From contig NZ_CP066786.1 of assembly GCF_016598595.1 (NCBI RefSeq), forward strand, positions 3,123,501 through 3,187,500: a stretch of DNA of 64,000 nt. Reading direction: 5' to 3'. The stretch is from Martelella lutilitoris (GTDB lineage: Bacteria > Pseudomonadota > Alphaproteobacteria > Rhizobiales > Rhizobiaceae). The position numbers and the translations under genes are program-made. Shown piece by piece: positions 9,462-30,778 of this stretch (position 1 is its first letter; the number at the start of each line of letters is the position of its first letter). The notes under the pieces were generated by a model. The model saw nothing but the letters and a program-made list of their open reading frames with translations, did not search any database and had not been told where the DNA came from.

Positions 9462-9480
9462 CTCGATCTCCTGAATTATA

Positions 9481-9500: not shown

Positions 9501-9594
9501 CTCGGGCCTTTGCAGGTCAACATGCCGCGAAGGTGAAACGGCCGAATGCGGAGGCGAATATGGCTATGCGTGATGCGGCGATTCATTCGAACCG

Positions 9595-11019: not shown

Positions 11020-11042
11020 CATACGTCATTTTCTGACGTATG
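11020..11042. promoter_or_regulatory. Operator overlapping the AbiEi-like start codon
   Basis: CATACGTCA-TTTTC-TGACGTATG is a perfect 9-base inverted repeat whose right arm contains the start codon (11040-11042). A related half-site TATGTCA precedes it at 11007-11013. AbiEi-type antitoxins are known to autorepress through promoter repeats, which this arrangement fits. Confidence 0.65.
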
Positions 11043-11878: not shown

Positions 11879-12121
11879 ATGACTGATCGCTGGATGTCCG
11901 TCGAGGAGATCGCCGGCTATCTGGGTGTCAGCAAAGACACGGTCTACGGTTGGATAACCAAAAGAGATCTGCCGGCACATAAGGTCGGAAGGCTCTGGAA
12001 GTTCAAGTCGGATGAAGTTGATTCGTGGGTGAGAGCTGGCAAGGCTTGCGACGACAGTAGTGAGAATACGGCAAGCGATCCGCGGAAAAGCAAAGGGCCT
12101 GCCACGAGAGGGAAGAAATGA
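11879..12121 (+). CDS. Small excisionase-type HTH protein heading the defence operon
   Basis: An 80-residue protein. Residues 5-55 form an excisionase/MerR-like winged HTH (MSVEEIAGYLGVSKDTVYGWI, then KVGRLWKFKSDEVDSWV), followed by a charged tail. A purine-rich site (GGAGAAGGGG) precedes the ATG. The stop overlaps the methyltransferase start by 4 bases, so it is translated with the defence operon. It probably acts as the operon's transcriptional regulator. A role in excision is less likely because no integrase is present. Confidence 0.8.
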   Translation: MTDRWMSVEEIAGYLGVSKDTVYGWITKRDLPAHKVGRLWKFKSDEVDSWVRAGKACDDSSENTASDPRKSKGPATRGKK

Positions 12122-13212
12122 GCGAAGTCGCCTGTATTGATCTGTTCTGTGGTGCCGGCGGCTTGACGCATGGTCTCATCCGAGCGGGTGTCCCGGTCGT
12201 CGCGGGCATCGATGTCGATACGGCATGCCGCTATCCGTTTGAGGCCAATAATGGTGCGCGGTTCCTCACTAAAGATATCAAGAGCGTCAAGCCATCGGAC
12301 CTGAACAAGTTGTATGGCGATGCAAGGATACGGATTCTGGCGGGCTGTGCTCCGTGCCAACCGTTCTCGACCTATTCCCAGCGGTACGACACCCTCACCA
12401 GCCCACGTTGGCCGCTGCTGTATCAGTTCGCGCGCCTCGTCAAATCCGTGCGCCCTGATATCGTCACCATGGAGAACGTGCCTCTGGTTGAAAAGCACGC
12501 GGTCTTCGACGACTTCGTCGCCACGCTTGAGCGACTGGGCTATAAAGTCTGGAGGAGCGTCGTGGATTGCACCCAATATGGGTTGCCTCAGACCAGACGG
12601 CGTATGGTCATCCTGGCGAGCTTGATCGGACCTATCGAGTTGATCTCGCCGACCCGCAAGAAACCGCGCACCGTCAAAGACGCGATCGGAAAGCTGCCCG
12701 CCATTGGGGCGGGAAGTGTCCACGACGACGATGCCTTCCATGTCTCCTCCAGGCTTTCGGATTTGAACCTGGAACGTATTCGTGCTTCCCGCCCCGGCGG
12801 GACGTGGCGTGATTGGCCGGAGCATTTGGTTGCCGAATGCCATCGGCGCGAAACGGGCCGCACCTATCCCGGCGTCTATGGACGCATGACTTGGGAAAAT
12901 CCGTCTCCGACGATAACCACGCAATTCTACGGTTTCGGCAACGGCCGCTTCGGCCATCCCGAGCAGGACCGTGCGATCTCCCTGCGCGAAGGTGCGATCC
13001 TGCAGGGCTTCCCAAAGAAATACGCCTTCGTAGCGGAAAATGGTCCGGCCCATTTCAAAGCGCTGGGCCGGATGATCGGCAATGCGGTCCCGGTCGCTCT
13101 CGGCGAGGCGATCGGCCAAAGCATCGTGACCCATCTCGGCGTCGAGGCGCAGACAGATCAGGCGAAGAAGGGAGACACCGCGAATGTCGCGTGTAAGCCC
13201 CTCGTCGCATGA
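12118..13212 (+). CDS. DNA (cytosine-5) methyltransferase
   Basis: A 364-residue Dcm-type enzyme with all landmarks. They are motif I DLFCGAGG (residues 5-12), the catalytic motif IV PCQPFS with its Cys near residue 79, motif VI ENVP near 119, motif VIII QTRRRM near 157, and motif X GNAVPVALGEAIG near 320. It methylates cytosine at the C5 position in a sequence that cannot be read from here. In class 2 DISARM a C5 methylase (DrmMII) marks self DNA; here it sits with class 1 genes and a vsr gene. It overlaps vsr by 29 bases. Confidence 0.95.
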   Translation: MSEVACIDLFCGAGGLTHGLIRAGVPVVAGIDVDTACRYPFEANNGARFLTKDIKSVKPSDLNKLYGDARIRILAGCAPCQPFSTYSQRYDTLTSPRWPLLYQFARLVKSVRPDIVTMENVPLVEKHAVFDDFVATLERLGYKVWRSVVDCTQYGLPQTRRRMVILASLIGPIELISPTRKKPRTVKDAIGKLPAIGAGSVHDDDAFHVSSRLSDLNLERIRASRPGGTWRDWPEHLVAECHRRETGRTYPGVYGRMTWENPSPTITTQFYGFGNGRFGHPEQDRAISLREGAILQGFPKKYAFVAENGPAHFKALGRMIGNAVPVALGEAIGQSIVTHLGVEAQTDQAKKGDTANVACKPLVA

Positions 13213-13609
13213 GGCGAGCCTCCGCATGGCTCGGGTGCGACAGAAGGGCACCGATGCTGAACTCTTTTTGCGCAAGGAATTGCACGCGAGAGGATTGCGC
13301 TATCGGTTACAAGTCCCGCTGCTGACCAAGCCACGGCGCGTTGCCGACATCGTGTTTCCCCGCGCCAGAATCGCCGTCTTCGTCGATGGCTGCTTCTGGC
13401 ATGGGTGCCCGGAGCACGCTTCCTGGCCGAAGAGCAACGCGCAATTTTGGCGTGACAAAATTGAAGCCAATCGAGCCCGAGATGCGGACACCGATCGACG
13501 CCTCAGTGCTTCGGGTTGGCGTGTCATTCGCGTATGGGCGCATGAGCGCGCCGGCGAAGCAGCCGAACGCATCGAAAATATCGTTCGAGGCGGGGGCCGG
13601 TTGCAATGA
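13184..13609 (+). CDS. vsr: Very-short-patch mismatch endonuclease Vsr
   Basis: A 141-residue Vsr nuclease. It nicks beside T:G mismatches produced by deamination of 5-methylcytosine and so limits the mutagenic cost of the adjacent C5 methylase. Diagnostic segments are RVSPSSHEASLRMARVRQKGTDAEL at the N-terminus and the catalytic core RVADIVFPRARIAVFVDGCFWHGCPEH (catalytic Asp and His, Zn-binding Cys), then NRARDADTDRRLSASGWRVIRVWAHE. The start at 13184 is kept because family members begin with the same SRVS/EAS segment. It overlaps drmD by 4 bases. Confidence 0.95.
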   Translation: MSRVSPSSHEASLRMARVRQKGTDAELFLRKELHARGLRYRLQVPLLTKPRRVADIVFPRARIAVFVDGCFWHGCPEHASWPKSNAQFWRDKIEANRARDADTDRRLSASGWRVIRVWAHERAGEAAERIENIVRGGGRLQ

Positions 13610-16600
13610 TCGTCGGGAATGCGAGCAGCTCGGCGGCTCAGATTGCTCATCACACGATTCCAGAGCCCGGTCAGTTGGTCGAAGCACGCCGACGGCAATG
13701 GATCGTATCGGAGGTCGATGGCGGATCGACCGCGCCGGGCGTTCCCAAACGCCACCTCATCCGATTGACGTCGATCGACGAAGACGCCCTCGGGGAGGAA
13801 ATCGAAGTCCTCTGGGAGTTGGAGCCCGGCGCGCACGTCATTGAGCGAGCCGGCCTGCCTCGCATCACCGGCTTGGACGATCCGGCCTCCCTACAGGCGT
13901 TCCTTGATGCCGTCCGATGGGGCGCCGCCACCAACGCCGACAGGGCCTATCTCCAGGCTCCTTTCCGCAGCGGCGTCAGCATTGAGGACTTCCAGCTCGA
14001 TCCATTGGTGCGAGCCATCGACATGGCCCGTACCAGCTTGCTCATCGCGGATGACGTTGGCCTCGGAAAGACGATCGAAGCCGGTCTGGTGATCCAGGAA
14101 ATGCTCCTGCGCCATCGTGCCCGCACCGTTTTGGTGTTGTGCCCCGCGTCCCTTCAGGAGAAGTGGCGCACGGAGATGCAGGAGAAATTCGGTCTCGACT
14201 TCCGGATCGTCGATTCCGAGTTCGTCAAGCACCTGCGCCGTGAACGCGGCCTGCACGCCAATCCGTGGACGTCGTTTCCTCTCCTCATCACGTCGATGGA
14301 TTGGGTGAAGCAAGGCGAAGGGCTGCGCCTGTTCCGGGACGCGCTGCCGCCCACTGTCACCCATCCTCGAAAATTCGATCTGCTGGTCATCGACGAAGCG
14401 CACAACATCGCGCCCACGGTCGGACACTATGCGGTCGAGAGCCTCCGTACCCGTTTGGTGCGACTGCTCGCGCCGCATTTCCAGCACAAGCTGTTTCTCA
14501 CCGCCACGCCCCATGACGGCTACACCGAGTCGTTCACCGCTCTGCTCGAACTGCTCGACGACCAACGCTTCGCCCGAAACGTCCTGCCGAGCGAGCCCCA
14601 GCGCGCTCGGGTCATGGTGCGGCGGCTGAAAAGCGACTTGGTGGATGCGAACGGCAAGCGACTTTACCCGGTACGGCGTCTCGAAGGGCTCCCCATCAAG
14701 TATGAAGATGACGAGCGGCAGATCCGGCATCTTCTCAGCGATTACATATCGTCACGCGAGAATGGCGAGGGCGGTGCCCGAGCGGTCGATCGCTTCGTCC
14801 ACCAATTGCTGCGCAAACGCCTCGCATCGTCGCCCGCCGCGTTCGCGGCGACACTGGAAAAGCACATTACGACGATCGAAGGCCGTTCGTCGGCCGACCA
14901 GACCAGGCGCAAGCTGGATGATCGCATCCTTCGCCGCGCCATCTCGAAGGCCGAAGAAGACTATGCCGACGACGCATTGCGCGAGGCGGCGGAAGACGAC
15001 GCGCTCAGCGAAGCCGGCAAACACATCCGGCCGCCCAGTGAGCAAGAGCGGCGGATGCTGGAACGCCTGCGCTCCTGGGCGCAGCAAGCATCACGCAGAG
15101 CGGATTCCAAGGCGCGCGCGATATTGGAGTGGCTGGCCAAGCATCTCCAGGAGGGCGGCGAATGGACGAATGAGCGGGTCATCCTGTTCACCGAATACCG
15201 GACGACGCAGCAGTGGATGCAAGAGACGCTCGTGTCGCACGGCTTCGGCGGCGATCGGCTGGCGTTGATCTATGGCGGCATGGATCACGACGAACGTGAG
15301 GCCGTAAAGGCGGCGTTCCAGGCCAACCCTTCGGAATCGCCAGTCAGAATCCTGTTGGCGACCGACGCGGCATCCGAAGGCATCGACCTTCAGAACCACT
15401 GCCACCTGATGATCCATTTGGAAATTCCATACAATCCTAACGTGATGGAGCAGCGGAACGGGCGCATCGACCGTCACGGCCAACGCTCCAGCGAGGTGGT
15501 CATCTGGCATCCGGTTGATGACGAAGGCGATCACGGGCAGGATATCCTGCGAGCGCTTCGGAAGCTCGACGCCATGCGGGCCGACATGGGGAGCGTCAAC
15601 CCGGTCATCGCGCCACAGCTCCCTGATCTGATCGAGGGGCGTCGGCGCGACTTGGACACCCGGCTGGCCGAAGCCCGCATGGAAAAATCGCGGCGCTTCG
15701 TTAAAGCCGAGCGAGACCTGCGGGATCGGGTCGCAAAGCTGCACGAGCGCCTCGCCGAGACCAAGCGCGAGCAAAATCTCACGCCCGATCACATCGAACG
15801 GGCGGTGAGAGCGGCGCTGCGCCTTTCGGACAAACCGGACCTCGGGGCCACGTCTATGCCCGGCGCTCCAGATGGGACCGTTTTCACCATGCCGGCGCTG
15901 TCCGGTTCATGGACGCGATGCCTGGAAGGGTTGGAGCATCCCTATACGAAGAAGGTCCGCCCCATCACGTTCGACCATGACGTGGCAAAGGGGCGCGATG
16001 ACGTCGTTCTGGTGCATCTCAATCATCCCCTCGTCCAGATGAGCCTGCGTCTGTTGCGCGCCGAAATCTGGGCGCGGGACGACGTGAAGAAGATCCACCG
16101 CGTCTCGGCCCGTTCCTTGCCCGATGGCCAGCTCGAAGGCCCCGCCGTCATCGTGGTTTCTCGATTGGTCATCACGGGTGGCAGTCATCATCGCCTGCAC
16201 GAGGAACTCACCGAGGCCGGCGGTTATCTGCGTGACGCTGGCTTCCGCCGCGAAGATCGCGTGACGGAGGTGCGCCGATGGCTTCAGGATTCCACCCCTG
16301 CCGCCTTGCCCGATACGACTTTCGCGGCGCTGCGCACCCGCTTCGATAAGCAGCGTGACTCCGTGTTGGGGTCGGTCGATGCGCGCTCCAAGGACCGCCT
16401 GCGCTTCCTGTCCAATTCGATCGACGCCCGTAAGGAACGAGAGAGCGACGACATTCGGCAGGTGCTCGACGATCTCGACACGGCCTTGCGGGCCGAACTC
16501 GTCGTCGACCATGAGCCGCAGCAACTCTCACTCTTTTCCGAGGACGAGCGCACCCAGCTCCGGCGCGATCACGCCGCCCTCGAAGCACGTCTCGCCCGCA

Positions 16601-16728
16601 TTCCGCTGGAACGGGAGCAAGAGGTGCGTGCCATCGAGAATAGATATTCTAATGTCCGAGATCACACCTTTCCCGTCGCGGTCATCCTGCTCGTACCCGA
16701 GTCCCTGACGGAGGGGCAGCCTCGATGA
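13606..16728 (+). CDS. drmD: DISARM SNF2-like helicase DrmD
   Basis: A 1040-residue SNF2/SF2 ATPase. Walker A is DDVGLGKTIEAG at about residue 148, DEAH (VIDEAHN) is near 260, the TATPHDGYTESF segment follows, and helicase motifs V and VI lie near 585-620 (ATDAASEGIDLQ, QRNGRIDRHGQ). The long helical C-terminus is as in DrmD. DrmD with an adenine methylase defines class 1 DISARM, in which phage DNA entering the cell is restricted. It overlaps vsr upstream and drmMI downstream by 4 bases each. Confidence 0.9.
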   Translation: MIVGNASSSAAQIAHHTIPEPGQLVEARRRQWIVSEVDGGSTAPGVPKRHLIRLTSIDEDALGEEIEVLWELEPGAHVIERAGLPRITGLDDPASLQAFLDAVRWGAATNADRAYLQAPFRSGVSIEDFQLDPLVRAIDMARTSLLIADDVGLGKTIEAGLVIQEMLLRHRARTVLVLCPASLQEKWRTEMQEKFGLDFRIVDSEFVKHLRRERGLHANPWTSFPLLITSMDWVKQGEGLRLFRDALPPTVTHPRKFDLLVIDEAHNIAPTVGHYAVESLRTRLVRLLAPHFQHKLFLTATPHDGYTESFTALLELLDDQRFARNVLPSEPQRARVMVRRLKSDLVDANGKRLYPVRRLEGLPIKYEDDERQIRHLLSDYISSRENGEGGARAVDRFVHQLLRKRLASSPAAFAATLEKHITTIEGRSSADQTRRKLDDRILRRAISKAEEDYADDALREAAEDDALSEAGKHIRPPSEQERRMLERLRSWAQQASRRADSKARAILEWLAKHLQEGGEWTNERVILFTEYRTTQQWMQETLVSHGFGGDRLALIYGGMDHDEREAVKAAFQANPSESPVRILLATDAASEGIDLQNHCHLMIHLEIPYNPNVMEQRNGRIDRHGQRSSEVVIWHPVDDEGDHGQDILRALRKLDAMRADMGSVNPVIAPQLPDLIEGRRRDLDTRLAEARMEKSRRFVKAERDLRDRVAKLHERLAETKREQNLTPDHIERAVRAALRLSDKPDLGATSMPGAPDGTVFTMPALSGSWTRCLEGLEHPYTKKVRPITFDHDVAKGRDDVVLVHLNHPLVQMSLRLLRAEIWARDDVKKIHRVSARSLPDGQLEGPAVIVVSRLVITGGSHHRLHEELTEAGGYLRDAGFRREDRVTEVRRWLQDSTPAALPDTTFAALRTRFDKQRDSVLGSVDARSKDRLRFLSNSIDARKERESDDIRQVLDDLDTALRAELVVDHEPQQLSLFSEDERTQLRRDHAALEARLARIPLEREQEVRAIENRYSNVRDHTFPVAVILLVPESLTEGQPR

Positions 16729-19700
16729 GCACAAACCACGACTGGCTCAACCTCATAGAGGTATCTGGACCGTTTCTTGCCGTGCCGGTTCTGCGCGAGG
16801 TGCTGCCCCAAGGGCTGGAAGCCCTTATCTCCGGCCGTCCGCAGCGGTTGCGCGCCACCTATGACGAATGGCGTGATGCCGTCGATGCGGACGACGCCGA
16901 CCTAGCGGCAATCCATTCGGCGTGGATCGACGAGGTTCTCCAGACCGCTCTCGAGGTGGACGATCAGGTTTTGCGCCGGACGGCAACTTTGCCGGAACGG
17001 CTGAAGGTGTCGCTGCCCGAACATGGTGTCACGATCGCGCCCGACCTAGCGATCGTAAATCCGACCCAGGGCGACGCCCCACTGCTACTCGTCCAGATCT
17101 ACGATCCTGATACCGATCTCGACGTCACGTGGAATTACGACGGTCTGGCCACGACACCGGGAGACAGGATGGTGTCGCTGCTTCGCGCCGCTGGATGCCT
17201 GATCGGTCTCGTGACTAATGGCGAACGCTGGATGCTCGTTCACGCGCCGGTCGGTGCGGTCGCGAGTTTCGCCAGTTGGTATGCTCGCCTCTGGGGCCAG
17301 GAGCCCGAGACGCTGCGGGCCTTCGTCAGCTTGCTCGGAGTCCGTCGCTTCTTCGGTCCCGAAGCCGAAAGGCTGCCGGCGTTGTTCGAGCGGTCTCTGA
17401 AGCACCAGGACGACGTGACCGACGCGCTCGGCGAACAGGTCCGCCGCGCGGTAGAGGTGTTGGTCCAATCCCTTGACCGTGCCGACCAGGATCGTAATCG
17501 GGACCTGTTGCACGACGTCGATCCGAAGGAACTCTACGAGGCCGGCCTCACGGTCATGATGCGACTCGTCTTCCTGCTGGCGGCAGAAGAGCGCGGCCTG
17601 CTCCTTCTCGGTGACCCTCGCTACGATGCCTTCTATGCGCTCTCCAGCCTGCGTATGCAGTTGCGTGCCGACACAGAGGAGATACTCGAACGGCGCCGCT
17701 CGGCATGGTCGCGCCTGCTCGCGCTTTTTCGTGGCGTCTATGGCGGCATCGACCATCCGTTGCTGCGGCTGCCGGCAATGGGCGGCTCGCTCTTCGACCC
17801 GGATCGTTACCCCTTCCTCGAAGGCCGCAAGAAAGGCACGAACTGGCGGAGCGATCCCGCCGAGCCTTTGCCGATCGACGACCGGACGGTCCTGCTCCTG
17901 CTGGAGGCGATTCAGACCTTCGAAGGCCGCACGCTGTCCTATCGTGCGCTCGACGTGGAACAGATCGGTCACGTCTATGAAGGTCTCCTCGAACGCACGG
18001 TCCAGCGCGTCGATGACGTAACACTCGAACTCGAAGGATCGGCCAAGGCCAAGAATGCTCGCGTCGCGCTCGGCGAGATCGAGTCCGCGCGCCTAGACGG
18101 CACCGCCAAGATCGTCGATCTCCTGAAGGAGCGGAGCGAGCGTTCCGAGCCCGCCATTCGAAACGCCATCGGCCGGGAACCGGATGAGCGCGTGGCGGCG
18201 CGGCTGCTCACCGTTTGCCGCGGTGACGTGGCCCTGCGTGACCGTATCCTGCCGTATGCCGAACTCTTGCGAACGGACCCGTGGGGATACCCTCTGGTCC
18301 ATCACGCCGACGCTTTCGTCGTCGTCCTCGGCGCCGATCGGCGCGAGAGCGGAACGCATTACACACCCAAGAGCCTGACCGAGAAGATCGTCGAGGAGAC
18401 ACTGACCCCGGTCGTCTATCGCGGCCCGGCCGAAGGCGCGGCGCGCGAGGATTGGAAGCTCAGGAGCGGCGACGAACTCCTCGACCTGAAGATCTGCGAT
18501 CCCGCGATGGGATCGGGTGCGTTCCTCGTGCAGGCTTGCCGCTGGCTCGCCGACCGGCTCGTCGAAGCCTGGTCCCATATGGAAGCGGCGGGCAGCCAGA
18601 TCGACAGCGAAGGCCTCATCCGGGCCGCCGATGACCCGGCCGGGTTCGAGCCGCTGTCGCGCGATACCGAAGAGCGCGCCATCCTCGCGCGTCGCCTGAT
18701 CGCCGAGCGCTGCCTCTACGGCGTCGACAAAAATCCGCTTGCGGTCGAGCTCGCTAAGCTGTCGCTTTGGCTGACCACGCTCGCGAAGGGGCGGCCTTTC
18801 GGCTTCCTCGATCACAACCTGCGGAGCGGCGACAGCCTACTCGGCATTCATGATCTCGGCCAGCTCGTTGAGCTGGATATGAAGCCGAAGGGCAATGCGC
18901 AGCTCCGTCTTTTCGGCCGAACCATCCGGTCTGCAGTCGACAAGGCGCTCGCACTTCGAAGCCAGCTTCGGTCGATCCCCATCCGCGACATCGGCGATGT
19001 TGAGGCGATGGCCGCGCTCGACGCTCAATCGCGTAATGAACTCGCCCTGCCTGAACTGATCGCCGACGCTCTCGTCGGCATCGTCCTCGCTGGAGAACGC
19101 GCAGTGAATATTACGGCGCTGGCGACCATTGCCGACGAGGCCGCAGGCGGTGACGCAAATGCACAGGCTCGCCTGCTGCGGCAGGCAATGGCCGACTTTG
19201 CAGGTGATACTTCCGATGGCGCTCCCCGCCGCCCGCTTCATTGGCCGCTCGAATACCCAGAGGTCTTTCTGCGAAACAATGGTGGGTTCGATGCTTTCGT
19301 CGGCAATCCGCCGTTCCTGGGAGGGCAACGGATCACTGGCGTAGCCGGCACCGTTTATCGGAATTGGCTCGTGAAGCAGATCGCCGAGGGGCGTCGTGGA
19401 TCGGCCGATCTGGTCGCGTACTTTTTCCTGCGCGCCTACTCGCTCTTGCGAGACGAAGGCGGCTTTGGGCTGCTCGCCGTCAACACCATCGCTGAAGGCG
19501 ACACACGGCAGGTTGGGTTGGAGGCCATGGTCAGCGGTGGTGCGGTAATCCATGCTGCTTATCCGAATGAACCCTGGCCTGGAAAGGCAGCGGTCGTCAC
19601 CAGTCGCGTTCATATCCACAAGGGTGAGTGGCGCGGTAGGTGTTCATTGCGCGGACACCCCACCGCATTTGTGTCGGCCTATCTTGCCGATCGGCAAGAG

Positions 19701-20837: not shown

Positions 20838-20897
20838 CACCAGCCAAATGGCGGTCGACCTCAACGTGCTCGTATGCCTCAAAGAAAGGGCCTGCCG

Positions 20898-22313
20898 ATG
20901 ACGAAACCCACCGCCGATCAAGCGCAGGCCAGCCCGACCAAGCGGTTCTTCGTGTCGATGCTGACGCGCGACATCAACCTTGCTGATGCGATCCTCGACC
21001 TTCTCGACAACTGCCTCGACGGCGCGCTCCGAATGGCTGATGGCGGCAATGTCGACTATGCGCAGCATTTCGTGAAAATCGAGCTCGCTGGCGATCATTT
21101 CTCGATCGAAGATAATTGCGGCGGCATCCCGCGCGAGGTCGCCAAGAATTATGCCTTCAAGATGGGCCGCGAGCCTGACGACGATCGTGACTCCGAAACT
21201 GAGACCATCGGCATGTATGGTGTCGGCATGAAGCGTGCGATCTTCAAGATGGGGCGTGAAGCGCTGGTGCGAACCCGCCATGGGGATGACACGTTCGAAG
21301 TGCCAATCACTTCGGCTTGGCTCGAAGCCAAGGGCTGGGATCCGCTACCGATCAACGAGCCGACGGAAGCGAGCGAGAAGCTCGCCGAGCCCGGCACCGT
21401 CATCCGGGTAGACGAATTATACGAGGGCGTCGCCAGACACTTTGCTAACGAGGCATTCGAGAACGAAGTCCGCACGGCCATCTCCGAACATTTTACGATG
21501 TTCCTTCAATGGGGGCTGAAGGTCGATCTCAATGGCAAGCCGGTGGAGCCCGTTTTCGTAGAAGTGCTGGTATCCGACCGCGCCGATGGTCCGGCGCCGT
21601 TCGTTTTCCAGAAGACCATCGACGATGTGCTCGTTTCAATCACCGTTGGCCTCAACACGGGGCGTAACCTCGGTAATGATGACGAGGATGAACCAGGCTT
21701 CGAGCGCGACCGCTCGTCGGCGACCGCCGGTTGGACAGTCCTGTGTAACGATCGCGCGGTGATCGTCGGCGATAAGAGCCGTCTGACGGGCTGGGGCGAT
21801 GGCATTCCGCTGTACCATCCGCAGTTCGCGATCATTACCGGTATCATTGAGTTCCGATCCAAGCTTGCCGACAAACTTCCGGTCACGACGACGAAGCGCG
21901 CGCTCGACACGTCGTCGAACGTGTGGCTCGAGTCTTTAGTAAAGATGAAAGAAGGTATGCGGATCTGGATTTCGTATACCAATCAGTGGAAGAACCATCC
22001 CCGTGCCGACCAGTCGAATTACTGGGAGGACTCAAAGCCATTGTCTTTGAGCAAGACGATCGCGGCCATCGCTTTGCGCAGCGATGTGAAAACGAGCGAT
22101 AGCCAGATTGAGTTCAACCCGCAGAAGGCGAAGGTTTTGCCGGAACCTCCCGGAAAGACGCCGTCGTCTAGGCGCATCGTGTTTTCGCGGCCCGTCGAAG
22201 AAATACGGCTCGTTTCGAAAATGCTATTCGACGTCGATGACGAAAAACCGGGCATCGTTGGCGAGAAATGTTTCGAGCTTACGCTGGCCAAAGCGCAGAA
22301 ACAAGGTGCTTGA
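20898..22313 (+). CDS. GHKL-type ATPase (Hsp90/MORC-like fold)
   Basis: A 471-residue protein with a complete Bergerat ATP-binding fold. It has the N box DAILDLLDNCLDGA near residues 28-41, the G1 box EDNCGGIP near 72, and the G2 box IGMYGVGMKRAIFKMG near 105. A transducer-like region and a helical tail follow. I place the start at 20898, behind AAAGAAAGGG, rather than at 20874. It is not one of the canonical DISARM genes but lies inside the operon, 60 bases after drmMI and 3 bases before the next gene. MORC/GHKL ATPases often act as DNA clamps, so a sensing or looping role is inferred. Confidence 0.85.
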   Translation: MTKPTADQAQASPTKRFFVSMLTRDINLADAILDLLDNCLDGALRMADGGNVDYAQHFVKIELAGDHFSIEDNCGGIPREVAKNYAFKMGREPDDDRDSETETIGMYGVGMKRAIFKMGREALVRTRHGDDTFEVPITSAWLEAKGWDPLPINEPTEASEKLAEPGTVIRVDELYEGVARHFANEAFENEVRTAISEHFTMFLQWGLKVDLNGKPVEPVFVEVLVSDRADGPAPFVFQKTIDDVLVSITVGLNTGRNLGNDDEDEPGFERDRSSATAGWTVLCNDRAVIVGDKSRLTGWGDGIPLYHPQFAIITGIIEFRSKLADKLPVTTTKRALDTSSNVWLESLVKMKEGMRIWISYTNQWKNHPRADQSNYWEDSKPLSLSKTIAAIALRSDVKTSDSQIEFNPQKAKVLPEPPGKTPSSRRIVFSRPVEEIRLVSKMLFDVDDEKPGIVGEKCFELTLAKAQKQGA

Positions 22314-22316
22314 GAT

Positions 22317-23312: not shown

Positions 23313-23333
23313 AGATTTATTCGGGGGCGACGC

Positions 23334-26300
23334 ATGAGCTTGACTGATGATCCAAACGCGCAGAGTTGGCTTGCCAAGGAACCGACTTGGCTCGGCCCGT
23401 GCATAGCTCGATTGAACGGCGAGCGTTCGGACTATTCGGCGGTCGATGAAGGACATTGGATCATCGCGGCCGAAGCCGATGGCACACTGACACGAGCCGG
23501 TCGAATTTTGCGCATTCGCGGCGATCTCGACAGCACGACGATCTATTTCGACCATGTGCATACGTTCCGGTCGTCGGGTACGGTATTCGGCCTCGGGCTG
23601 ACGCTGCCGACCGGCCCGATCGCGCGCCTCCGGCCGGAAGACTTGGCGGTGATTTTCGCTCTCGACGGCATTTCGATCAGCGATGTTCCGGTCATCCAAA
23701 ACGTCGCCTATGTGCGCGACCTGCTCGAAATAGCGGTCCGCGACGACCTGCTCGGTCCCGCCGGCGGACCGCACGAACTCATCAAGGACATGAGCGTCCG
23801 GGACCGCTATCTGGTCGGCAAGCTCGCGCCGCGGCGGCCGAGCGACACCGATACCGTCACCGTCGAGCCCGCGGCCGGTGCAGACGAAATCCGCGACATC
23901 GAAGATGAGCGGGCCGCGCCAATCCACGAACCTGGCGCCGAGTTCGCCAGCGTCTCCGGTCGCGTGGAGCCGGAAGACGACGCCCTCGACGAAATCGACA
24001 CCACGAACAATCAGTCACTCGTCCCGTCGAGCATGGGGTTCACCTTCTGCGTCGCGCCGGGCGTAGAGGCGCTGGCCGCGGATGTCCGGTGGGGACGCTA
24101 TGAGCGTGTTCCGGGCGATGAGCACGATGTCGTCAAGACCCGCAAGAACCGGGCGACCGGCCGGGAAGAAGAAGCCAAGGTCAAGGTGTGGCGGCGAATC
24201 CCGTGCGGTGGCGTCGTTCCCCTGCCGCTGAGGGATGGGCCGATACGACCGGCGACGCCGGATCGTGACCAGCCTGAAGTGAGGCTTCAAGGGACGATCC
24301 GCACAAACGCCCAAGGGGAGCACCTCGTCACTCTATTCCTCGTGAACGGCCAGTTGGAGCCTGACGACAACAAGGATCGCGCTTGGCTGTTCCAACCAGA
24401 AATCTCGGTGGCCGCGCCCGAAGGCGCTGCAGATTCGTCGATCTTCAGACGACGTCCTTCTAACGAAATCGTCGTGGATGACCCGGAACGTGATCGCCTC
24501 GCCCTGATCTATCGCAACCGACTCGAGTTCGCCGTCGGCCACGGCGTCTCCGTCCATGCCGACACGACGTCGGGCGACTCTGCAAAGGCTTCGCACCTCC
24601 GCACGGAAATCATCCCGCGCTATGAGGTCGCCGTCACTGAAACACCGGGCCTTGATCCGGACGACCGGCCGGCCATGCGCCGTATGGTCGATGAGGGGTG
24701 GCTCGACATGGGGCGGCTCGCGGAGATGGAACCGCAGCAATTGCGCAATGCCCTGTCGTGCCTGGTCGACGACTATGCCGTCTGGATCGGGGAGCAGAGA
24801 ACACGGCTGAAAACCGAGATCACGGGCTTCGATGACCCTGGAAAGGACGTGATCGCCCGTTGCGAGGAAACCTTGCGCCGCCTGCGCGAGGGAATGGACA
24901 CGCTTTTTGCCGACGCCGCGGCGCTATCGGCGTTCCGCTTCGCCAACAAGTCGATGGCGCTCCAGCGTGTCCGGAGCCTCTATGCACTCAAACGCAGGCG
25001 CGGCGAGGCGGCCGGTGTCACGCAGCTCGACATCCCAAAGAATCGATCCTGGCGCCCTTTCCAGTTGGCTTTCCTCCTATTGTCGGTGCCATCTCTCGCC
25101 GACCCCGCGCATTCCGATCGGACGAAACCGGCGGAAGCCTTCGCCGATCTCCTCTGGTTCCCGACCGGCGGTGGCAAGACCGAAGCCTATCTGGGCGTAG
25201 CGGCCTTTGCCATGGCGATGCGCCGATTGAAGGACGATCTCGGCGGCCTCGATGCCTCCCGCGGCTTGGCAGTCATCATGCGGTACACGCTGCGCCTGCT
25301 GACTCTGCAACAGTTCCAACGCGCCACGGCTCTCTTGTGCGCAATGGAAGTGATCCGGCGCGCCGATGAGAAGCTTTGGGGCAAGGAGCCCTTCTCGTTG
25401 GGGTTGTGGGTCGGCAATCGGGTGACGCCAGGCCGAACCGCCGACGCTCACCAAGCAATCGAGGCGCTGCGGAATGGCGACCGGAATAAATCCGGTATCG
25501 CGTCGCCCGCGCAACTGACGAGCTGCCCGTGGTGCGGTTCCGAAATCTCGCCGGGTCGCGACATTGAGGTCGATCGGATAGCCGGCCGAACGCTCATCCA
25601 TTGCAGCGACAAACTCGGCACCTGCGAATTTTCACGGGCCGGCTCCGGCGGCCTTCCGCATCCCGGCTTGCCCGTGAAAGTGGTCGATGAGGAAATTTAT
25701 CATCGTCCTCCGACGATGATGATCGCCACCGTGGACAAGTTCGCCATGATGGCCTGGCGGCCGGAAGTGCGGACTCTCTTCGGCCGGGTCGATGAAGAAT
25801 GTGAACGTCACGGCTTGCTCTGGCCGGGCCACGACTGCGGCACCGGGCACCGCGCACGCGGCGCCTATCCCGCCGCGAGGGTGAAGCCGGTGCGCGCCGC
25901 CGTCCGGCCTCCCGACCTCATCATCCAGGATGAGTTTCACCTCATCAGCGGCCCGCTTGGCACCATGGTCGGTCTCTATGAGAGCGCCGTCGACGAGCTG
26001 AGTTCTTGGGTACTCGGAGATACGAAGGTCCGGCCGAAGGTGGTGGCATCGACGGCCACGGTCCGGCGAGCCGAAGACCAGGTGCGTAACGTATTCATGC
26101 GTCGCATCTCGGTCTTTCCGCCCACCGGCCTCGACGTGGAGGACAATTTCTTTTCGGTTCAGCGCCCCATCGGCGAGAAACCCGGTCGCCGCTACATGGG
26201 CATCTGCGCGCCCGGCAGTTCGAGGCCAGCCGTTCTGATCCGAACCTATACGGCCTTCCTCACCGCCGCACAGGCTCTCTTCGATCGCTTCGGCCCGGTC

Positions 26301-27314
26301 GCAGATCCCTACATGACGCTCGTCGGCTATTTCAATTCGCTGCGCGAGTTGGGCGGGATGAAGCGTCTCGCCGAGGACGACGTGCAGACGCGCTCCTTCC
26401 GTGTGAACATGAGCTTGGTCGACCGTCCGGGGCTGTCACAACGTCGCGTCGATGACGTTCGGGAACTCACCTCCCGCGTCTCCAGTCACGACATCCCGCG
26501 CTATCTCGATCAGCTCGAAGTACCGTTCAATGGGACGCTCGATCCCAAGACGGGTGAATGGGCTGAGAACAGGGCTCTCGGCGATCCGCGTCCGATCGAC
26601 GTCGTTCTGGCCACCAATATGCTGTCGGTCGGCGTGGACGTGAACCGTCTCGGCGTGATGGTCGTCAATGGCCAGCCGAAAGGAACGGCGGAGTATATCC
26701 AGGCGACCAGCCGCGTCGGCCGCTCTCCACCTGGCCTGGTCGCCACCGTGCTCACTTGGGCACGCCCGCGCGACCTCTCCCATTACGAGACGTTCGAACA
26801 CTACCACGCGACCTTCTATCAGCACGTCGAGGCTCAATCCGTGACACCATTTTCCCCGCGTGCGCTGGATCGTGGTCTCACGGGCGCGATGCTGTCGATC
26901 ATGCGAAACAGCTACGATCCTTTCGCGCCCAACACGGGTGCGGGCGCGATGAACAGTCCGAGCCGACCGGAGATGATGACGACGATCGGCGTCGTGTCCG
27001 AACGAACCTGGGAGGTCACGGAAGACTCGGCGAAGAAGGCCTTGACCGAACGAGAGCTGAAGCACCGCGCCGACGATTGGGCGAAAGAGGCCGGCGTTGG
27101 AGGTCGCACGCTCGTCTATCAGAAATATGGGGCAGGCCCGACGGCCTATCCCCTTTTGGAGAATCCCGGCGTGAAGCCTTGGACGGACTGGACCGTTCCG
27201 ATGTCGATGCGGGAGGTCGAACCCGGCGTGAGGTTGGTGATGGAAGACGCGCGCTCGACGAATGATCCCGCCTGGCGAGCCCGTGTCACTCCGGCCGATG
27301 GGGGTGACGCATGA
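23334..27314 (+). CDS. drmA: DISARM helicase DrmA
   Basis: A 1326-residue DISARM core helicase. Walker A FPTGGGKTEAYLGV is near residue 608, a DExH variant QDEFHLISG near 865, motif V LSVGVDVNRLG near 1097, and motif VI QATSRVGR near 1122. A zinc-binding insert lies between motifs I and II (SCPWCGSEI with a later cysteine pair). The acidic N-terminal 550 residues match DrmA proteins. With DrmB it forms the complex that loads on 5'-overhang DNA in characterised DISARM. It overlaps drmB by 4 bases. Confidence 0.93.
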   Translation: MSLTDDPNAQSWLAKEPTWLGPCIARLNGERSDYSAVDEGHWIIAAEADGTLTRAGRILRIRGDLDSTTIYFDHVHTFRSSGTVFGLGLTLPTGPIARLRPEDLAVIFALDGISISDVPVIQNVAYVRDLLEIAVRDDLLGPAGGPHELIKDMSVRDRYLVGKLAPRRPSDTDTVTVEPAAGADEIRDIEDERAAPIHEPGAEFASVSGRVEPEDDALDEIDTTNNQSLVPSSMGFTFCVAPGVEALAADVRWGRYERVPGDEHDVVKTRKNRATGREEEAKVKVWRRIPCGGVVPLPLRDGPIRPATPDRDQPEVRLQGTIRTNAQGEHLVTLFLVNGQLEPDDNKDRAWLFQPEISVAAPEGAADSSIFRRRPSNEIVVDDPERDRLALIYRNRLEFAVGHGVSVHADTTSGDSAKASHLRTEIIPRYEVAVTETPGLDPDDRPAMRRMVDEGWLDMGRLAEMEPQQLRNALSCLVDDYAVWIGEQRTRLKTEITGFDDPGKDVIARCEETLRRLREGMDTLFADAAALSAFRFANKSMALQRVRSLYALKRRRGEAAGVTQLDIPKNRSWRPFQLAFLLLSVPSLADPAHSDRTKPAEAFADLLWFPTGGGKTEAYLGVAAFAMAMRRLKDDLGGLDASRGLAVIMRYTLRLLTLQQFQRATALLCAMEVIRRADEKLWGKEPFSLGLWVGNRVTPGRTADAHQAIEALRNGDRNKSGIASPAQLTSCPWCGSEISPGRDIEVDRIAGRTLIHCSDKLGTCEFSRAGSGGLPHPGLPVKVVDEEIYHRPPTMMIATVDKFAMMAWRPEVRTLFGRVDEECERHGLLWPGHDCGTGHRARGAYPAARVKPVRAAVRPPDLIIQDEFHLISGPLGTMVGLYESAVDELSSWVLGDTKVRPKVVASTATVRRAEDQVRNVFMRRISVFPPTGLDVEDNFFSVQRPIGEKPGRRYMGICAPGSSRPAVLIRTYTAFLTAAQALFDRFGPVADPYMTLVGYFNSLRELGGMKRLAEDDVQTRSFRVNMSLVDRPGLSQRRVDDVRELTSRVSSHDIPRYLDQLEVPFNGTLDPKTGEWAENRALGDPRPIDVVLATNMLSVGVDVNRLGVMVVNGQPKGTAEYIQATSRVGRSPPGLVATVLTWARPRDLSHYETFEHYHATFYQHVEAQSVTPFSPRALDRGLTGAMLSIMRNSYDPFAPNTGAGAMNSPSRPEMMTTIGVVSERTWEVTEDSAKKALTERELKHRADDWAKEAGVGGRTLVYQKYGAGPTAYPLLENPGVKPWTDWTVPMSMREVEPGVRLVMEDARSTNDPAWRARVTPADGGDA

Positions 27315-29152
27315 GCAAGACGCCCGTAGGTGAAATCCGTCCGAGCCAGCTGTTGTGGACTTACGGTCCCGGCGCTCTCATCGACTTACCCAATCTATCG
27401 GTCGTCACCATGGGGATCGACCGTTGGGAAAGAGACAGATGCCAGCCCATACAAGAGGCACGGTTGCTGGCGAACGTCCGAAGCGTTCTCGGCCCCCAAG
27501 TGGAATCGCTACGCATGCCGCCACTCGGCGATCGCGATGTCGTCGATCCATTCTCGCCCGCGGCGCTGATCGGTGTTCCGGTGAAACCGTTTCCCCGATG
27601 GCTGCGGTGCGTGAAATGCGGTTTGCTGTCACCATTCGACGCCGGCTTGTTCAAGCTGAAAGAAAACCGATACCGGCCGGAGCTGACACGCTTCGTGCAT
27701 GAAGGATGCCGGGGCTCGAACAACGACCAGCGTGCCAAAGACGCCGATGCGGTGCCGGCTCGCTTCCTGATGGCCTGCCGCGCAGGGCATCTGGATGATT
27801 TTCCGTGGCATTGGTTCGTTCATGGCGGCCTTGACGATTGCCGTGGAACATTACGCTTCTTCGAAAGCGGAGCATCGCTGCAAACCGAAAATCTCTGGGT
27901 CAAATGCGATGCCTGTGGTGCCGCGAAAAACATGGCACAGGCCTTCGGCCAGGCAGGTAGAGACAACCTCCCCGCCTGCCGCGGAAGGCATCCCCATATC
28001 GATCGGTTCGATGATGACTGCCCCGAAGATCCTCGGGCGATCCTTCTCGGCGCGACCAACGGCTGGTTCCCTGTCACGTTGTCGGTTCTCGCCATTCCTC
28101 AAACAGGAAGTCCCTTGGCGCAGCTCGTCGGCGATGGCTGGACCTTCTTCGAAGATGTTTCCTCGGTCGACGAAGTCGGTTTCGTGGTCAAGACGCTAAA
28201 GAAAACGGCCCAGCTCTCTGGCATCGAACAGTTCACTAGCGAACAGATCTGGGCCGCCATAGAAGCCCATCGGAATGGTGGCGCGGATATCGATCAAAGT
28301 GACCTCAAGGAACCGGAATGGCAGGTTCTGACGGCGGATGATCCGCCGACCGACTATCCGCATTTCATGAGCAAGAAGGTGGGCATCCCGAAAGGCTTCG
28401 AAACCGCGATCACGCGCGTCCTGCTGTTGGAGCGGTTGCGCGAGGTCAATGCCTTGCTCGGTTTCACCCGCGTCGAATCCCCGGACGAAGGATCGGGTGA
28501 CGATGCGGCACCACGCGCTCCGCTGGGGCGCGCGGCTCCCGATTGGGTGCCGGCGACGCAAGTTCACGGCGAGGGAATCTTCGTGCGCTTCGACGCCGAC
28601 GCCCTGGACGCTTGGGCTGAGCAAGATGCGGTGAAAGATGTCGATGCTCGTTTGCGAACGGGGCATCGTGGATGGCGCCAAAAACGGAATCTCGACCCGA
28701 GAGAGGGCTATCCCGGCGTGCGATACGTGTTTCTACACACTTTGGCCCACATGCTGATCAGGGAACTGGCTCTCGAGTGCGGATACAATGCCGCCAGCAT
28801 CCGTGAACGGATATATGGAGAAGTCGACGGCGAAAAAGAACAAGCTGGAATTCTGATTTATACCGCCGCCGCAGATTCCGACGGAACGCTCGGCGGTTTG
28901 GTCGAATTGGGCAAACCAGAAAACCTAGGGAGGTTGCTTCGCCAGGCCTTGGACCGCGCCCATGTCTGCGCTTCCGATCCGCTGTGCTCCGAGCACGATC
29001 CGAGCAAAGACCAGTCGCTGCATGGCGCCTCCTGCCATGCCTGCTCCTTTGTCTCGGAAACATCGTGCGAAAGGGGCAATCGGCATCTGGACCGCGCGTT
29101 GGTGGTTCCCACGCTTGAAAATCCCAACGCAGCATTCTTCCGGAACTCATGA
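27311..29152 (+). CDS. drmB: DISARM protein DrmB (DUF1998)
   Basis: A 613-residue DrmB. It begins with the family-typical PVGEIRPSQLLWTYGPGALIDLP and carries cysteine pairs CVKCG (about residue 99) and CDACG (about 199). The DUF1998 C-terminal part has LHTLAHMLIRELALECGY and a last cysteine cluster CSEHDP...CHAC...C. DUF1998 proteins partner helicases encoded beside them, here DrmA, with overlapping reading frames. The length and order drmA-drmB-drmC match known DISARM loci. Confidence 0.93.
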   Translation: MSKTPVGEIRPSQLLWTYGPGALIDLPNLSVVTMGIDRWERDRCQPIQEARLLANVRSVLGPQVESLRMPPLGDRDVVDPFSPAALIGVPVKPFPRWLRCVKCGLLSPFDAGLFKLKENRYRPELTRFVHEGCRGSNNDQRAKDADAVPARFLMACRAGHLDDFPWHWFVHGGLDDCRGTLRFFESGASLQTENLWVKCDACGAAKNMAQAFGQAGRDNLPACRGRHPHIDRFDDDCPEDPRAILLGATNGWFPVTLSVLAIPQTGSPLAQLVGDGWTFFEDVSSVDEVGFVVKTLKKTAQLSGIEQFTSEQIWAAIEAHRNGGADIDQSDLKEPEWQVLTADDPPTDYPHFMSKKVGIPKGFETAITRVLLLERLREVNALLGFTRVESPDEGSGDDAAPRAPLGRAAPDWVPATQVHGEGIFVRFDADALDAWAEQDAVKDVDARLRTGHRGWRQKRNLDPREGYPGVRYVFLHTLAHMLIRELALECGYNAASIRERIYGEVDGEKEQAGILIYTAAADSDGTLGGLVELGKPENLGRLLRQALDRAHVCASDPLCSEHDPSKDQSLHGASCHACSFVSETSCERGNRHLDRALVVPTLENPNAAFFRNS

Positions 29153-29913
29153 TGGATCCGCTCTTGAACGCGGTCACGAAACTCGTGGCCTTGGTGTCGC
29201 CATCGAAGATCGAAGCAATTGCGTCCCGACTGCGTGGCACGCACCCTTCTGATGGCGAGCAAAATCTCCAGGAAGTCGTTGGCACGCCCGCCGCCCGATC
29301 TGCGTTGGGCGCGGTAATGATGGCTTGGCGGGACACCGCGTTGACCGGCGACATCCTGGCAGGAATGCTGCTGGGAGCGGCTCATACCAGGCAACAGACA
29401 CAGCGAGATCATAACGTTGAACTCGTGTGGACCGGGCCAACGACGCCATTCGTCGCGACCCGTCGTACCGACCAGGTGCTTTTGGATCTCATTCGACAGG
29501 CGAAGCGAGAGGTTTTTATCGTGAGCTTCGTAGCCTACGATGTTCCTTCCGTCGTTGCCGCTCTCAACGACGCCATCGATCGAGGCGTCGATACCCGTAT
29601 TCTCGTCGAGGCTTCTTTGACCCAAGGGGGCAGTTTGCTCGTCGATCCGGTGGCGACGATGAGAAATGCTGTTCCCTCGGCCCGGCTATATGTCTGGACC
29701 GATCGCCCGCATCCATTCACCAACGGTCGTGTCCACGCGAAGGTGGCCGTCGCGGACAGCACCATTGCATTCTTGACGAGTGCCAATTTGACGGGACACG
29801 CACTAGAAAAGAACATGGAGGCAGGTGTTCTGCTGACTGGCGGATCAACTCCATCCAATTTGCGTGATCATATGTTTGCACTGATCGAAACAAAGGTAAT
29901 CAGATCTACTTAG
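29149..29913 (+). CDS. drmC: DISARM phospholipase D-like protein DrmC
   Basis: A 254-residue protein with a PLD-family C-terminal half. The active motif HxKx4D is seen as VHAKVAVAD near residue 196, followed by LTSANLTGHALEKNMEAGVLL. There is only one clear HKD motif, as in DrmC and other PLD nucleases that work as dimers. It is the third core DISARM gene. Its role is nuclease-like by family, but in characterised DISARM it was reported dispensable for protection. Confidence 0.9.
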   Translation: MMDPLLNAVTKLVALVSPSKIEAIASRLRGTHPSDGEQNLQEVVGTPAARSALGAVMMAWRDTALTGDILAGMLLGAAHTRQQTQRDHNVELVWTGPTTPFVATRRTDQVLLDLIRQAKREVFIVSFVAYDVPSVVAALNDAIDRGVDTRILVEASLTQGGSLLVDPVATMRNAVPSARLYVWTDRPHPFTNGRVHAKVAVADSTIAFLTSANLTGHALEKNMEAGVLLTGGSTPSNLRDHMFALIETKVIRST

Positions 29914-29938
29914 CCAAATCGGTATCGGAGCCATCGCA

Positions 29939-30778
29939 GTGATTCAGCGCCTGGTCATCGACAGCAACATGCTGCAGTCGGAATATCTCCGGCACTTTCT
30001 CGATACCTCGTCTACCAATTTCGCGGTTCTGCCTGATTTCGCTTGGTTTGAAATTTACAAGCAGAGATCAATCGAAGCAGTTGCATCAGCCCTTTCCGTG
30101 ATCGGTGATTTTCCCGAACAGATCGTTGTTTTAAAGTCCGGACGGGATATCGCAGAAATAGATCCCAGGATGCCAGCGATGCTGCCTTTGATGCAGTATG
30201 GGGATGCGGCAGATAGCATTCGAGAAATGGTCAATATACTGAATGGCCCCAGTCGAAACGAGCCTGCGATTCGGGATCAATTGGATCGCCTATGGGACGG
30301 CGCTGTGAATTCTCTTCCTGGCATGCTCGAAGGTGCTCAGGACATAATGACCTCTCTGCCAGAGATGTCGGAGCAAATGTTCAAAGCCCAGCACCTTCGT
30401 ATCATCAGGCAGAACTCGCGATTTACTCCGGAAATGTTTTCCTCGATTTTTGGAGCCGCCGACCAGATATGGGAGACGTTGTCGGATGGAGGACGGCATC
30501 GTTCCGCTCCGTCGGCGTTCGATGAACATAAAACGCATACCTATCTCTACCGTTATGCCCTTGCGCTCGTCATCTACCTTCTCTGGTGGATCAGGAATGG
30601 AAATCAGCCGCAAAAGCGGCTTGAACGAACGCGAAATGATCTCATCGACCTAAGCTTTGCCGTGTACGGCACATATTACGAGGGCCTGATGACCTCGGAT
30701 AAGAAGGCGGGATGGATGTATGAAAACCTTCGCCTCGCACTCGGTGCCGTTGAGGGGGAAATGACAACGATGCGGTAA
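29939..30778 (+). CDS. Unknown protein with PIN-nuclease-like ends, associated with DISARM
   Basis: A 279-residue protein starting at a GTG with GGAG 8 bases upstream. The N-terminus VIDSNMLQSEYLRHFL resembles the first strand of PIN domains (leading Asp), with an acidic residue in FAWFEIYKQ. Near the C-terminus, NDLIDLSFAVYGTYYEGLMTSDKKAGW resembles the acidic Asp...SD strand of PIN nucleases; a helical insert lies between. If so, it is an RNA- or DNA-cleaving effector. It starts 25 bases after drmC on the same strand. GC content is lower than drmA. Family identity is my inference. Confidence 0.5.
   Translation: MIQRLVIDSNMLQSEYLRHFLDTSSTNFAVLPDFAWFEIYKQRSIEAVASALSVIGDFPEQIVVLKSGRDIAEIDPRMPAMLPLMQYGDAADSIREMVNILNGPSRNEPAIRDQLDRLWDGAVNSLPGMLEGAQDIMTSLPEMSEQMFKAQHLRIIRQNSRFTPEMFSSIFGAADQIWETLSDGGRHRSAPSAFDEHKTHTYLYRYALALVIYLLWWIRNGNQPQKRLERTRNDLIDLSFAVYGTYYEGLMTSDKKAGWMYENLRLALGAVEGEMTTMR

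Follow-up and report, generated by a model that had tools for sequence, protein, structure and literature searches.

A class 1 DISARM operon of Martelella lutilitoris with a cytosine methylase-Vsr leader and a MORC-Methyltransf_35 pair in a variable accessory slot

The DNA considered here, referred to as the window, is a stretch of 64,000 nucleotides from Martelella lutilitoris (contig NZ_CP066786.1, positions 3,123,501 to 3,187,500) that carries at 11879-30778 an operon of the DISARM (defence island system associated with restriction-modification) type. The operon comprises eleven open reading frames (ORFs) on the forward strand, all of them found where a first-pass annotation made from the sequence alone had placed them (Table 1). 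In addition to the class 1 core genes drmD, drmMI, drmA, drmB and drmC, it contains a leader of three genes coding for a helix-turn-helix (HTH) protein, a C5 cytosine methylase and Vsr, a pair of genes between drmMI and drmA coding for a MORC-type GHKL ATPase and a Methyltransf_35 protein (MT35), and a tail with a PIN-like (orf11) and a NO VEIN gene. Across genomes, the drmMI/drmA junction is a variable accessory slot, the pair is exchangeable and nearly always accompanied by a C5 methylase, and both the C5 methylase and Vsr vary in step with the DISARM core.

The eleven genes are indeed tied together by overlaps of 4-29 bp or by gaps of at most 36 bp, much as had been noted at first pass. Overlaps of 4 bp are found at the HTH/C5, Vsr/DrmD, DrmD/DrmMI, DrmA/DrmB and DrmB/DrmC junctions and one of 29 bp at C5/Vsr, while the gaps measure 36 bp between DrmMI and GHKL, 3 bp between GHKL and MT35, 21 bp between MT35 and DrmA and 25 bp between DrmC and orf11. 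The first of these gaps widens to 60 bp with a GHKL start at 20898, the probable true start according to most homologues. Another 127 bp separate orf11 from the next gene, which encodes the NO VEIN-C protein.

All five families that define DISARM type I in PADLOC are present in full length and in the order drmD-drmMI-drmA-drmB-drmC, above the curated cut-offs where these exist, and the initial assignment of a class 1 core with C5 methylase and Vsr is borne out by family matches far beyond chance. PADLOC was run on 17 window proteins, including 10 of the eleven operon products (all but the HTH protein), with the best 25 models considered for each. The C5 methylase is of the DrmMII type and thus recalls class 2 (DrmMII, DrmA, DrmB, DrmC, DrmE): DrmMII (PDLC02651) is the best of 57 PADLOC models, generic C5 models reaching at most 284 bits. 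However, class 2 was rejected because DrmD and DrmMI are present and DrmE, which is prohibited in PADLOC type I, is not among the PADLOC matches listed for the 17 proteins; these matches do not include a separate REase_II model for window proteins either.

A motif scan revealed catalytic motifs in the C5 methylase, DrmC and the GHKL protein and a DEAH box in DrmD, while Walker A was matched neither in DrmD nor in DrmA by the simple, crude search patterns used. Vsr, recognized by a nicking endonuclease model, adjoins the C5 methylase. DrmMI also matches a type IIG restriction endonuclease-methyltransferase model (PDLC03618, 1582 bits); since the NPPF motif was found but the E-x-K triplet is missing from the same scan, DrmMI is probably a methylase without nuclease. 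The PADLOC model PDLC02572 is labelled DrmA and yet is the best match of the DrmD protein (1569.5 bits), so that its label looks wrong.

Table 1. Genes of the operon and the adjoining NO VEIN-C gene (window coordinates)
Feature	Position	Strand	Matches and motifs
Excisionase/MerR-like HTH, first gene, 80 aa	11879..12121	+	NF047737 MAD1 82.4 bits (cut-off 80); TIGR01764 66; PF12728 HTH_17 61.3
C5 cytosine DNA methylase, DrmMII-like, 364 aa	12118..13212	+	PF00145 179 bits; PDLC02651 DrmMII 320; motifs PCQPFS, ENV, QTRRR, GNAV
Vsr endonuclease, 141 aa	13184..13609	+	TIGR00632 115 bits (cut-off 97.85); PF03852 60.9
DrmD, SNF2-like helicase, 1040 aa	13606..16728	+	NF038317 1362.6 bits (cut-off 610)
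DrmMI, MmeI-like adenine methyltransferase, 1370 aa	16725..20837	+	PDLC02643 1822 bits; Eco57I and MmeI domains; NPPF at 861
Prokaryotic MORC-type GHKL ATPase, 479 aa	20874..22313 (probable true start 20898)	+	PF13589 37.4 bits (cut-off 25)
Methyltransf_35 protein MT35, class I SAM-methyltransferase fold, 331 aa	22317..23312	+	PF20553 278.8 bits (cut-off 27)
DrmA helicase, 1326 aa	23334..27314	+	NF038325 1444.7 bits (cut-off 950)
DrmB, MZB/DUF1998 protein, 613 aa	27311..29152	+	NF038324 757.4 bits (cut-off 240); PF09369 45.7
DrmC, phospholipase D-like nuclease, 254 aa	29149..29913	+	NF038319 248.1 bits (cut-off 133); PF13091 58.9; HAKVAVAD motif
orf11, PIN-like protein, optional tail gene, 279 aa	29939..30778	+	No family match; invariant acidic residues
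NO VEIN-C protein (PADLOC candidate PDC-S36), 277 aa	30906..31739	+	PDLC05008 420 bits; PF13020 78.8

The GHKL gene encodes a prokaryotic MORC, related to the MORC proteins that silence genes in animals and plants. Its ATP-binding motifs are intact (DLLDN, DNCGG and GMYGVGMK, at positions conserved in two homologue alignments), it has the two-domain GHKL and S5 architecture of MORC, and its top matches in structural comparison are MORC3 and MORC4. The motif GhXhhpXXRhl, defined as MORC-specific in PMC2292703, occurs in the S5 domain as GWTVLCNDRAV at residue 286; it is found in 27 of 29 aligned GHKL rows and in 121/121 homologues, compared with 31 of 5800 shuffled sequences. Homologues at E<=0.001 made up 3208 of 8000 scored candidates for the GHKL protein and 922 of 7999 for MT35. 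Neither protein has a PADLOC or NCBIfam match, sequence searches of the PDB with the two profiles gave no firm match, and the DUF4263 nuclease domain was not found in the GHKL protein with Pfam.

MT35 is a candidate enzyme, structural comparison giving it the Rossmann fold of class I S-adenosylmethionine (SAM) methyltransferases. The nearest folds according to VIA-align are mostly RNA methyltransferases, which leaves 'O-methyltransferase' unsupported as its function, and Foldseek ranks Trm1 first with small-molecule methyltransferases close behind. The Trm1 family TRM (PF02005) does not match MT35, for which PF20553 is the sole Pfam family at E<=0.1, and no Trm1 gene (PF02005) was found in ten genomes holding related loci. 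The LRPNKAVDR segment is invariant in the MT35 alignment, an invariance partly produced by the peptide-based search described below; a prophage copy (L115) has LRQNKAIER at this position.

A scan of the genome collection with the MT35 profile, via the exact peptides WFDYTEP or LRPNKAVD, yielded 41 loci (L numbers below designate loci compared with the window), whose frequencies describe the neighbours of the pair and not DISARM at large. The GHKL gene lies upstream of MT35 in all 41, and in 27 of them the pair precedes drmA in a DISARM locus. The linkage of the two genes to drm genes proposed at first pass thus recurs elsewhere, and a chance mosaic of one genome can be rejected on account of these 27 other loci. 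In 26 of the 27, drmMI is upstream of the pair, the remaining contig (L010) breaking off at the GHKL gene. Of the 27 loci, 17 show the full order C5-Vsr-drmD-drmMI-pair-drmA-drmB; in L010 it is probably split over two contigs, with a C5 methylase beside drmD on the other one. Hosts of the 27 loci include Alpha-, Beta- and Gammaproteobacteria, Myxococcota, Planctomycetota and Chlorobiota, among others. A C5 methylase was found in 25 of the 26 genomes searched, in 24 of them overlapping the DISARM locus, and the 27th locus (L035) has a C5 methylase of its own.

A census with the DrmD profile NF038317, chosen to avoid the bias of the pair-based search, was made in overlapping sets of genomes, drawn from around the order, class and phylum of the window and around two other genomes rather than across all bacteria. 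DrmD scored above cut-off in 10/397, 3/385, 7/398, 4/360, 11/221 and 3/176 genomes, the first three draws including the window's genome, for a total of 31 distinct loci with the window counted (L043 is the same strain as L008, with identical pairs). Eleven of the 31 have a C5 leader (the window, L043, L044, L053, L054, L089, L100, L101, L102, L108 and L109), which includes Vsr in the first eight. The slot could be measured in 24 loci, since L056, L090, L091 and L102 are cut, L109 has no drmA, L057 is rearranged, and the drmA frame of L089 was not recognized by the script. Gaps longer than 300 bp occur at drmMI/drmA in 15/24 loci, compared with 4/28 at drmD/drmMI, 0/17 at drmA/drmB and 0/9 at drmB/drmC (Fisher p 4.7e-4, 3.1e-5 and 1.4e-3, respectively, from related loci that are not independent). 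At least two of the four long drmD/drmMI gaps (L051, L108) are interrupted drmD frames.

The slot is empty in L044, L052, L053, L054 and L110, where drmMI overlaps drmA by 4 bp. Three of these (L044, L053 and L054) are close relatives in the census that carry the C5-Vsr leader and lack the pair. Elsewhere the cargo is diverse. XRE-type genes are found in L046-L050 and L058 (HTH and Peptidase_M78 according to Pfam in L049 and L058, the others by eye); in L048, L049 and L058 this gene is followed by a PIN-like gene, again judged by eye and with no Pfam match in the two that were scanned. L089 carries a UG5 reverse transcriptase-nitrilase (PADLOC, 948 bits) and a separate MmeI target-recognition gene. 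The cargo of L100 consists of a GHKL ATPase of the PADLOC REase_II family and a Schlafen AlbA_2 protein behind a C5-Vsr leader; L101 resembles it in having genes of similar size and similar start, likewise with a C5-Vsr leader. A PIN gene (PF01850) occupies the slot in L105, a PifA-like KAP NTPase with a PIN gene in L106, and a 359-aa protein in L103 and L107. Outside the slot, the plain class 1 DISARM of a Deinococcus plasmid is directly followed by vsr, a C5 methylase and a GHKL REase_II gene (L060, 30163-33872); similar genes may have come together independently in this case. In L044 and L089, drmMI itself looks broken into a methylase part and a target-recognition part, as though its specificity could be swapped.

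How far the pair has evolved with its surroundings was assessed by Spearman correlation of pairwise distances in 20 pair-bearing DISARM loci, the ones among 29 that have all nine genes needed, and by gene trees (L010 was left out of both, and L042 out of the trees). Within the core, correlations reach 0.93 for drmA-drmB and 0.92 for drmA-drmD, and are lower for drmMI-drmA (0.66). The leader gives 0.83 for C5-drmA and 0.87 for C5-Vsr. GHKL and MT35 correlate with each other (0.84), and the divergence of the pair tracks the core only loosely (GHKL-drmA 0.51, MT35-drmA 0.35, MT35-drmD 0.34). In the GHKL and MT35 trees (42 rows), well-supported branches require four or more transitions from DISARM to stand-alone states or back, as labelled, although long branches occur in distant stand-alone rows and the number may be smaller since the stand-alone labels of L014 and L033 rest on contigs ending nearby. 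The clearest exchange concerns L023 (Nguyenibacter, in DISARM) and L024 (Arenimonas, stand-alone), which are sisters with full support in both trees. Since L023 is about 90 % identical to the window in its core and only about 70 % in the pair, the pair has been exchanged as a unit.

The remaining 14 of the 41 loci lack drmA, and 12 of these have a C5 methylase, which in 11 adjoins the pair in the same orientation; Vsr accompanies 5 of these 11. Any other cluster of neighbours is shared by at most three stand-alone loci. L014, whose contig ends just after MT35, has a weaker C5 match (28 %), L033 is a contig of only 4.3 kb, and L042 shows no C5 methylase. A further 33 loci came from a scan of viral contigs, the identity being about 30 % in 31. 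All 33 stretches contain a C5 methylase and 32 a GHKL gene (L112 starts at MT35), while neither drm nor vsr matches were found in them at E<=1e-4. L115 is a P2-like prophage, judged by eye, with the cassette between a portal gene and a replication gene. At least 80 % of this cassette is present in 47 of 5,426 complete E. coli genomes, and 254 complete genomes show any match to it, some to the methylase alone. The cassette occupies the same place in the P2-like prophages L144 and L147 and lies in a lambdoid-looking prophage region in L146. In the Pseudomonas filamentous phage PfAC20 (L145, 280-3711), MORC, MT35 and the C5 methylase are ORF1-3, of which PMC11878078, in its available text, records the 'cytosine methyltransferase' alone, as an incomplete system. 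A plasmid scan at E<=1e-20 returned one record with the pair, from Microvirga.

The explanation that we consider probable is that the window belongs to a clade of class 1 DISARM with its own HTH-C5-Vsr leader, into whose drmMI/drmA slot a portable MORC module (MORC and MT35) has been placed as a second restriction line that respects the C5 mark. In such a system DrmMI (at adenine) and the C5 methylase would mark self DNA, while DrmD, DrmA, DrmB and DrmC would attack DNA devoid of these marks. Vsr repairs T:G mismatches at deaminated 5-methylcytosine (5mC), and the enzyme encoded here would do so at sites of the C5 methylase. Several restriction enzymes need SAM, and MT35, as the presumed SAM-binding partner, may license the MORC clamp or else add a further, third mark. 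The MORC dimer would act as an ATP-driven clamp that entraps or loops DNA without the C5 mark; MORC ATPases have been proposed to loop DNA in restriction-modification (R-M) systems (PMC2292703). The MORC module would then be an independent line of restriction, and the C5 self mark would be respected by the DISARM core too. DISARM is known to mark self DNA, and a lower ATPase activity of DrmAB on 5mC DNA has been described in work that concerns DrmMII's mark (PMC9142583).

A number of observations weigh against this explanation. In the census the pair is a minority state, present in 2 of 31 loci (the window and L043) and in 2 of the 11 with a C5 leader. Among the DISARM loci with the pair, no Vsr was found in the leader of L012, L019, L021, L029 and L030, L018 shows no drmD, the C5 methylase and Vsr of L017 and L035 lie after drmC instead of at the front, and L020, whose contig starts inside drmD, shows no C5 gene. 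The viral contigs largely form one related group and do not count as 33 independent cases. As to the proteins, the MORC motif is missing from the GHKL rows L040 and L041, MORC3 comes first in structural comparison but MORC4 and Hsp90 tie in Z, and the likeness of MT35 to Trm1 is at fold level only (12 % identity, Foldseek TM about 0.4). The bootstrap intervals of the correlations are also wide. That of GHKL-drmA runs from 0.15 to 0.86, the difference between C5-drmA and GHKL-drmA has an interval that spans zero (-0.03 to 0.67), and of three differences tested only C5-drmD minus MT35-drmD excludes it (0.10 to 0.94). Moreover, the correlation of the pair with the core exceeds permutation (Mantel p 0.001 for GHKL-drmA and 0.013 for MT35-drmA). 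Finally, the pair follows its linked C5 methylase no better than it follows drmA (difference 0.02, -0.15 to 0.19), evidence against its being closely coupled to a single specific methylase.

A more far-reaching proposal can be advanced only tentatively: MORC, Methyltransf_35 and C5 methylase may constitute an undescribed, stand-alone anti-phage system of three genes, which P2-like, lambdoid and filamentous prophages bear as cargo and which is free-standing in many phyla, repeatedly acquired by the class 1 DISARM slot that also admits UG-type reverse transcriptases, toxin-like genes and other ATPases, and representing a bacterial counterpart of cytosine-methylation-guided MORC silencing. It is weakened slightly by PMC9523054, which already ties MORC-family proteins to a methyltransferase defence cluster. 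That the MORC module is a separate, undescribed system has a fair chance.

It is unlikely that the pair instead provides the restriction function in a type II-like R-M system merely nested in DISARM, with the nuclease supplied by Vsr or by an unrecognized cleaving activity alongside MORC. Such a role would fit the MORC-methylase-Vsr R-M neighbourhoods predicted in PMC2292703, and other GHKL ATPases, beside dcm/vsr in L060 or in the slot of L100, are assigned to REase_II by PADLOC. However, neither protein has a PADLOC match in four cassettes (window, L144, L145 and L025), MT35 has a methyltransferase fold, and no Vsr accompanies 6 of the 11 stand-alone pairs whose C5 neighbour is clear, or any of the 33 viral stretches. 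The pair could also serve modification, with MORC opening or tethering DNA so that the C5 methylase or MT35 methylates it more fully; MORCs aid DNA methylation in plants (PMC8277788). The near-constant partner is indeed a C5 methylase and not a nuclease, MT35 has the fold of a methyltransferase, and the stand-alone cassettes lack a conserved dedicated nuclease. We consider this quite unlikely, as the cassettes are extra cargo among prophage genes and the DISARM slot elsewhere holds defence- or toxin-like genes, both of which favour an attacking role.

The first-pass annotation had favoured one obligate system of eleven genes, MORC, MT35 and the PIN-like gene included, that would form a new DISARM subtype with two marks. 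The tight operon with its overlaps and the recurrence of the full order up to drmB in 17 loci speak for such a unit, but we now regard it as very unlikely: the pair is missing from the syntenic, leader-bearing relatives L044, L053 and L054, it is exchanged and free-standing elsewhere, and orf11 occurs in only 2 of 27 loci. What survives of the undescribed subtype is a recurrent variant whose order was not found in the literature searched; being modular, it is better described as a class 1 DISARM whose C5/Vsr leader co-varies with the core and whose slot cargo is exchangeable. Simple hitchhiking, in which unrelated defence genes have gathered on a single transcript and function independently of both DISARM and the C5 methylase, is no more credible, for although the slot holds many unrelated cargoes, the C5 methylase is a near-constant partner in bacterial, viral and plasmid contexts.

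With respect to known systems, the HTH-C5-Vsr leader, the MORC-MT35 pair between drmMI and drmA and the PIN-like and NO VEIN tail set the window apart from published class 1 DISARM. PADLOC's published DISARM type I, in its available description, lists five core genes only, with drmE prohibited. Both methylases noted at first pass are present, but their combination was already foreseen as 'DrmMI and/or DrmMII' (PMC9142583), and a 'DISARM-RM hybrid cluster', not further specified in the available text, was mentioned in 2025 (PMC12375680). ARMADA (PMC12458937, available in part) differs in that the window proteins match the DISARM families of DrmA, DrmB and DrmC, with DrmA and DrmB as separate genes.

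As early as 2008, PMC2292703 predicted MORC-methylase-Vsr neighbourhoods, a minority of its MORC-methylase neighbourhoods being without helicases. The MORC and paraMORC proteins of these R-M neighbourhoods share with the window the GHKL and S5-type ATPase, the MORC motif and the link to C5 methylase and Vsr; the available text does not describe a fixed MT35 partner or a placement in DISARM, which was then unnamed. Mza-like systems (PMC9523054, 2022) likewise have a cytosine methyltransferase in a defence cluster, and two subtypes are strongly associated with MORC, but their other core genes and AIPR protein were not seen in the window, and no MT35 partner is named in the part of that paper available. 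The C5-HK-like-RR-like-Vsr cassettes of PMC8011034 (2021) also combine an HATPase_c_3 protein and a fixed partner with C5 methylase and Vsr; according to the accessible text their partner is Response_reg_2 (PF19192), whereas in the window it is Methyltransf_35 (PF20553). Shedu provides another GHKL ATPase in phage defence (VcSduA/paraMORC3, PMC12137116), there described as fused to a DUF4263 nuclease that the window protein lacks in Pfam searches. The literature searched contains no MORC-MT35 pair in DISARM, no drmMI/drmA slot and no MORC-MT35-C5 defence cassette, but most subscription papers lay outside the search and this absence is weak evidence.

The tail of the operon is variable. orf11 occurs in 2 of the 23 DISARM loci with at least 1.3 kb beyond drmC, and a NO VEIN-C protein follows it in the window, L002 and L023, so that the two genes perhaps form a cargo after drmC. 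orf11 has no match in Pfam, PADLOC or NCBIfam, and none of 16 members of its family gave a PIN match in Pfam. The protein has 72 homologues, and in the family alignment D8, E38, D234, D237 and D254 are invariant, with a spacing that by eye is plausibly, if not provably, PIN-like.

The operon seems to lie on an island resembling an integrative and conjugative element. Large ORFs within window 33000-46500, named by eye, are ParB-like (36707-38848), helicase/methyltransferase-like (39789-44108) and Toprim-like (43580-45148). One 20-kb stretch from the same genus (L099) matches the window at 37210-46411 and at 8357-9654, with nothing between, which places the border of the island only roughly. Upstream of the operon, 10128-10400 on the reverse strand encodes a short integrase-like N-terminal fragment (by eye), perhaps a remnant of the island's integrase, and an AbiEi/DUF6088 antitoxin-like gene immediately precedes the operon (11040-11612, forward strand). 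A HipA-like gene (PF07804) is found at 33441-34673 on the reverse strand.

If the explanation preferred here is true, DISARM would be a chassis with an internal cargo slot rather than a fixed set of genes, and detection by the five core genes would miss part of its biology. The compact three-gene cassette of E. coli prophages, with a MORC ATPase beside a cytosine methylase, would moreover be common enough for laboratory testing. Most work on how MORC proteins act together with DNA methylation has been done in animals and plants, and a minimal bacterial version would make this question tractable.

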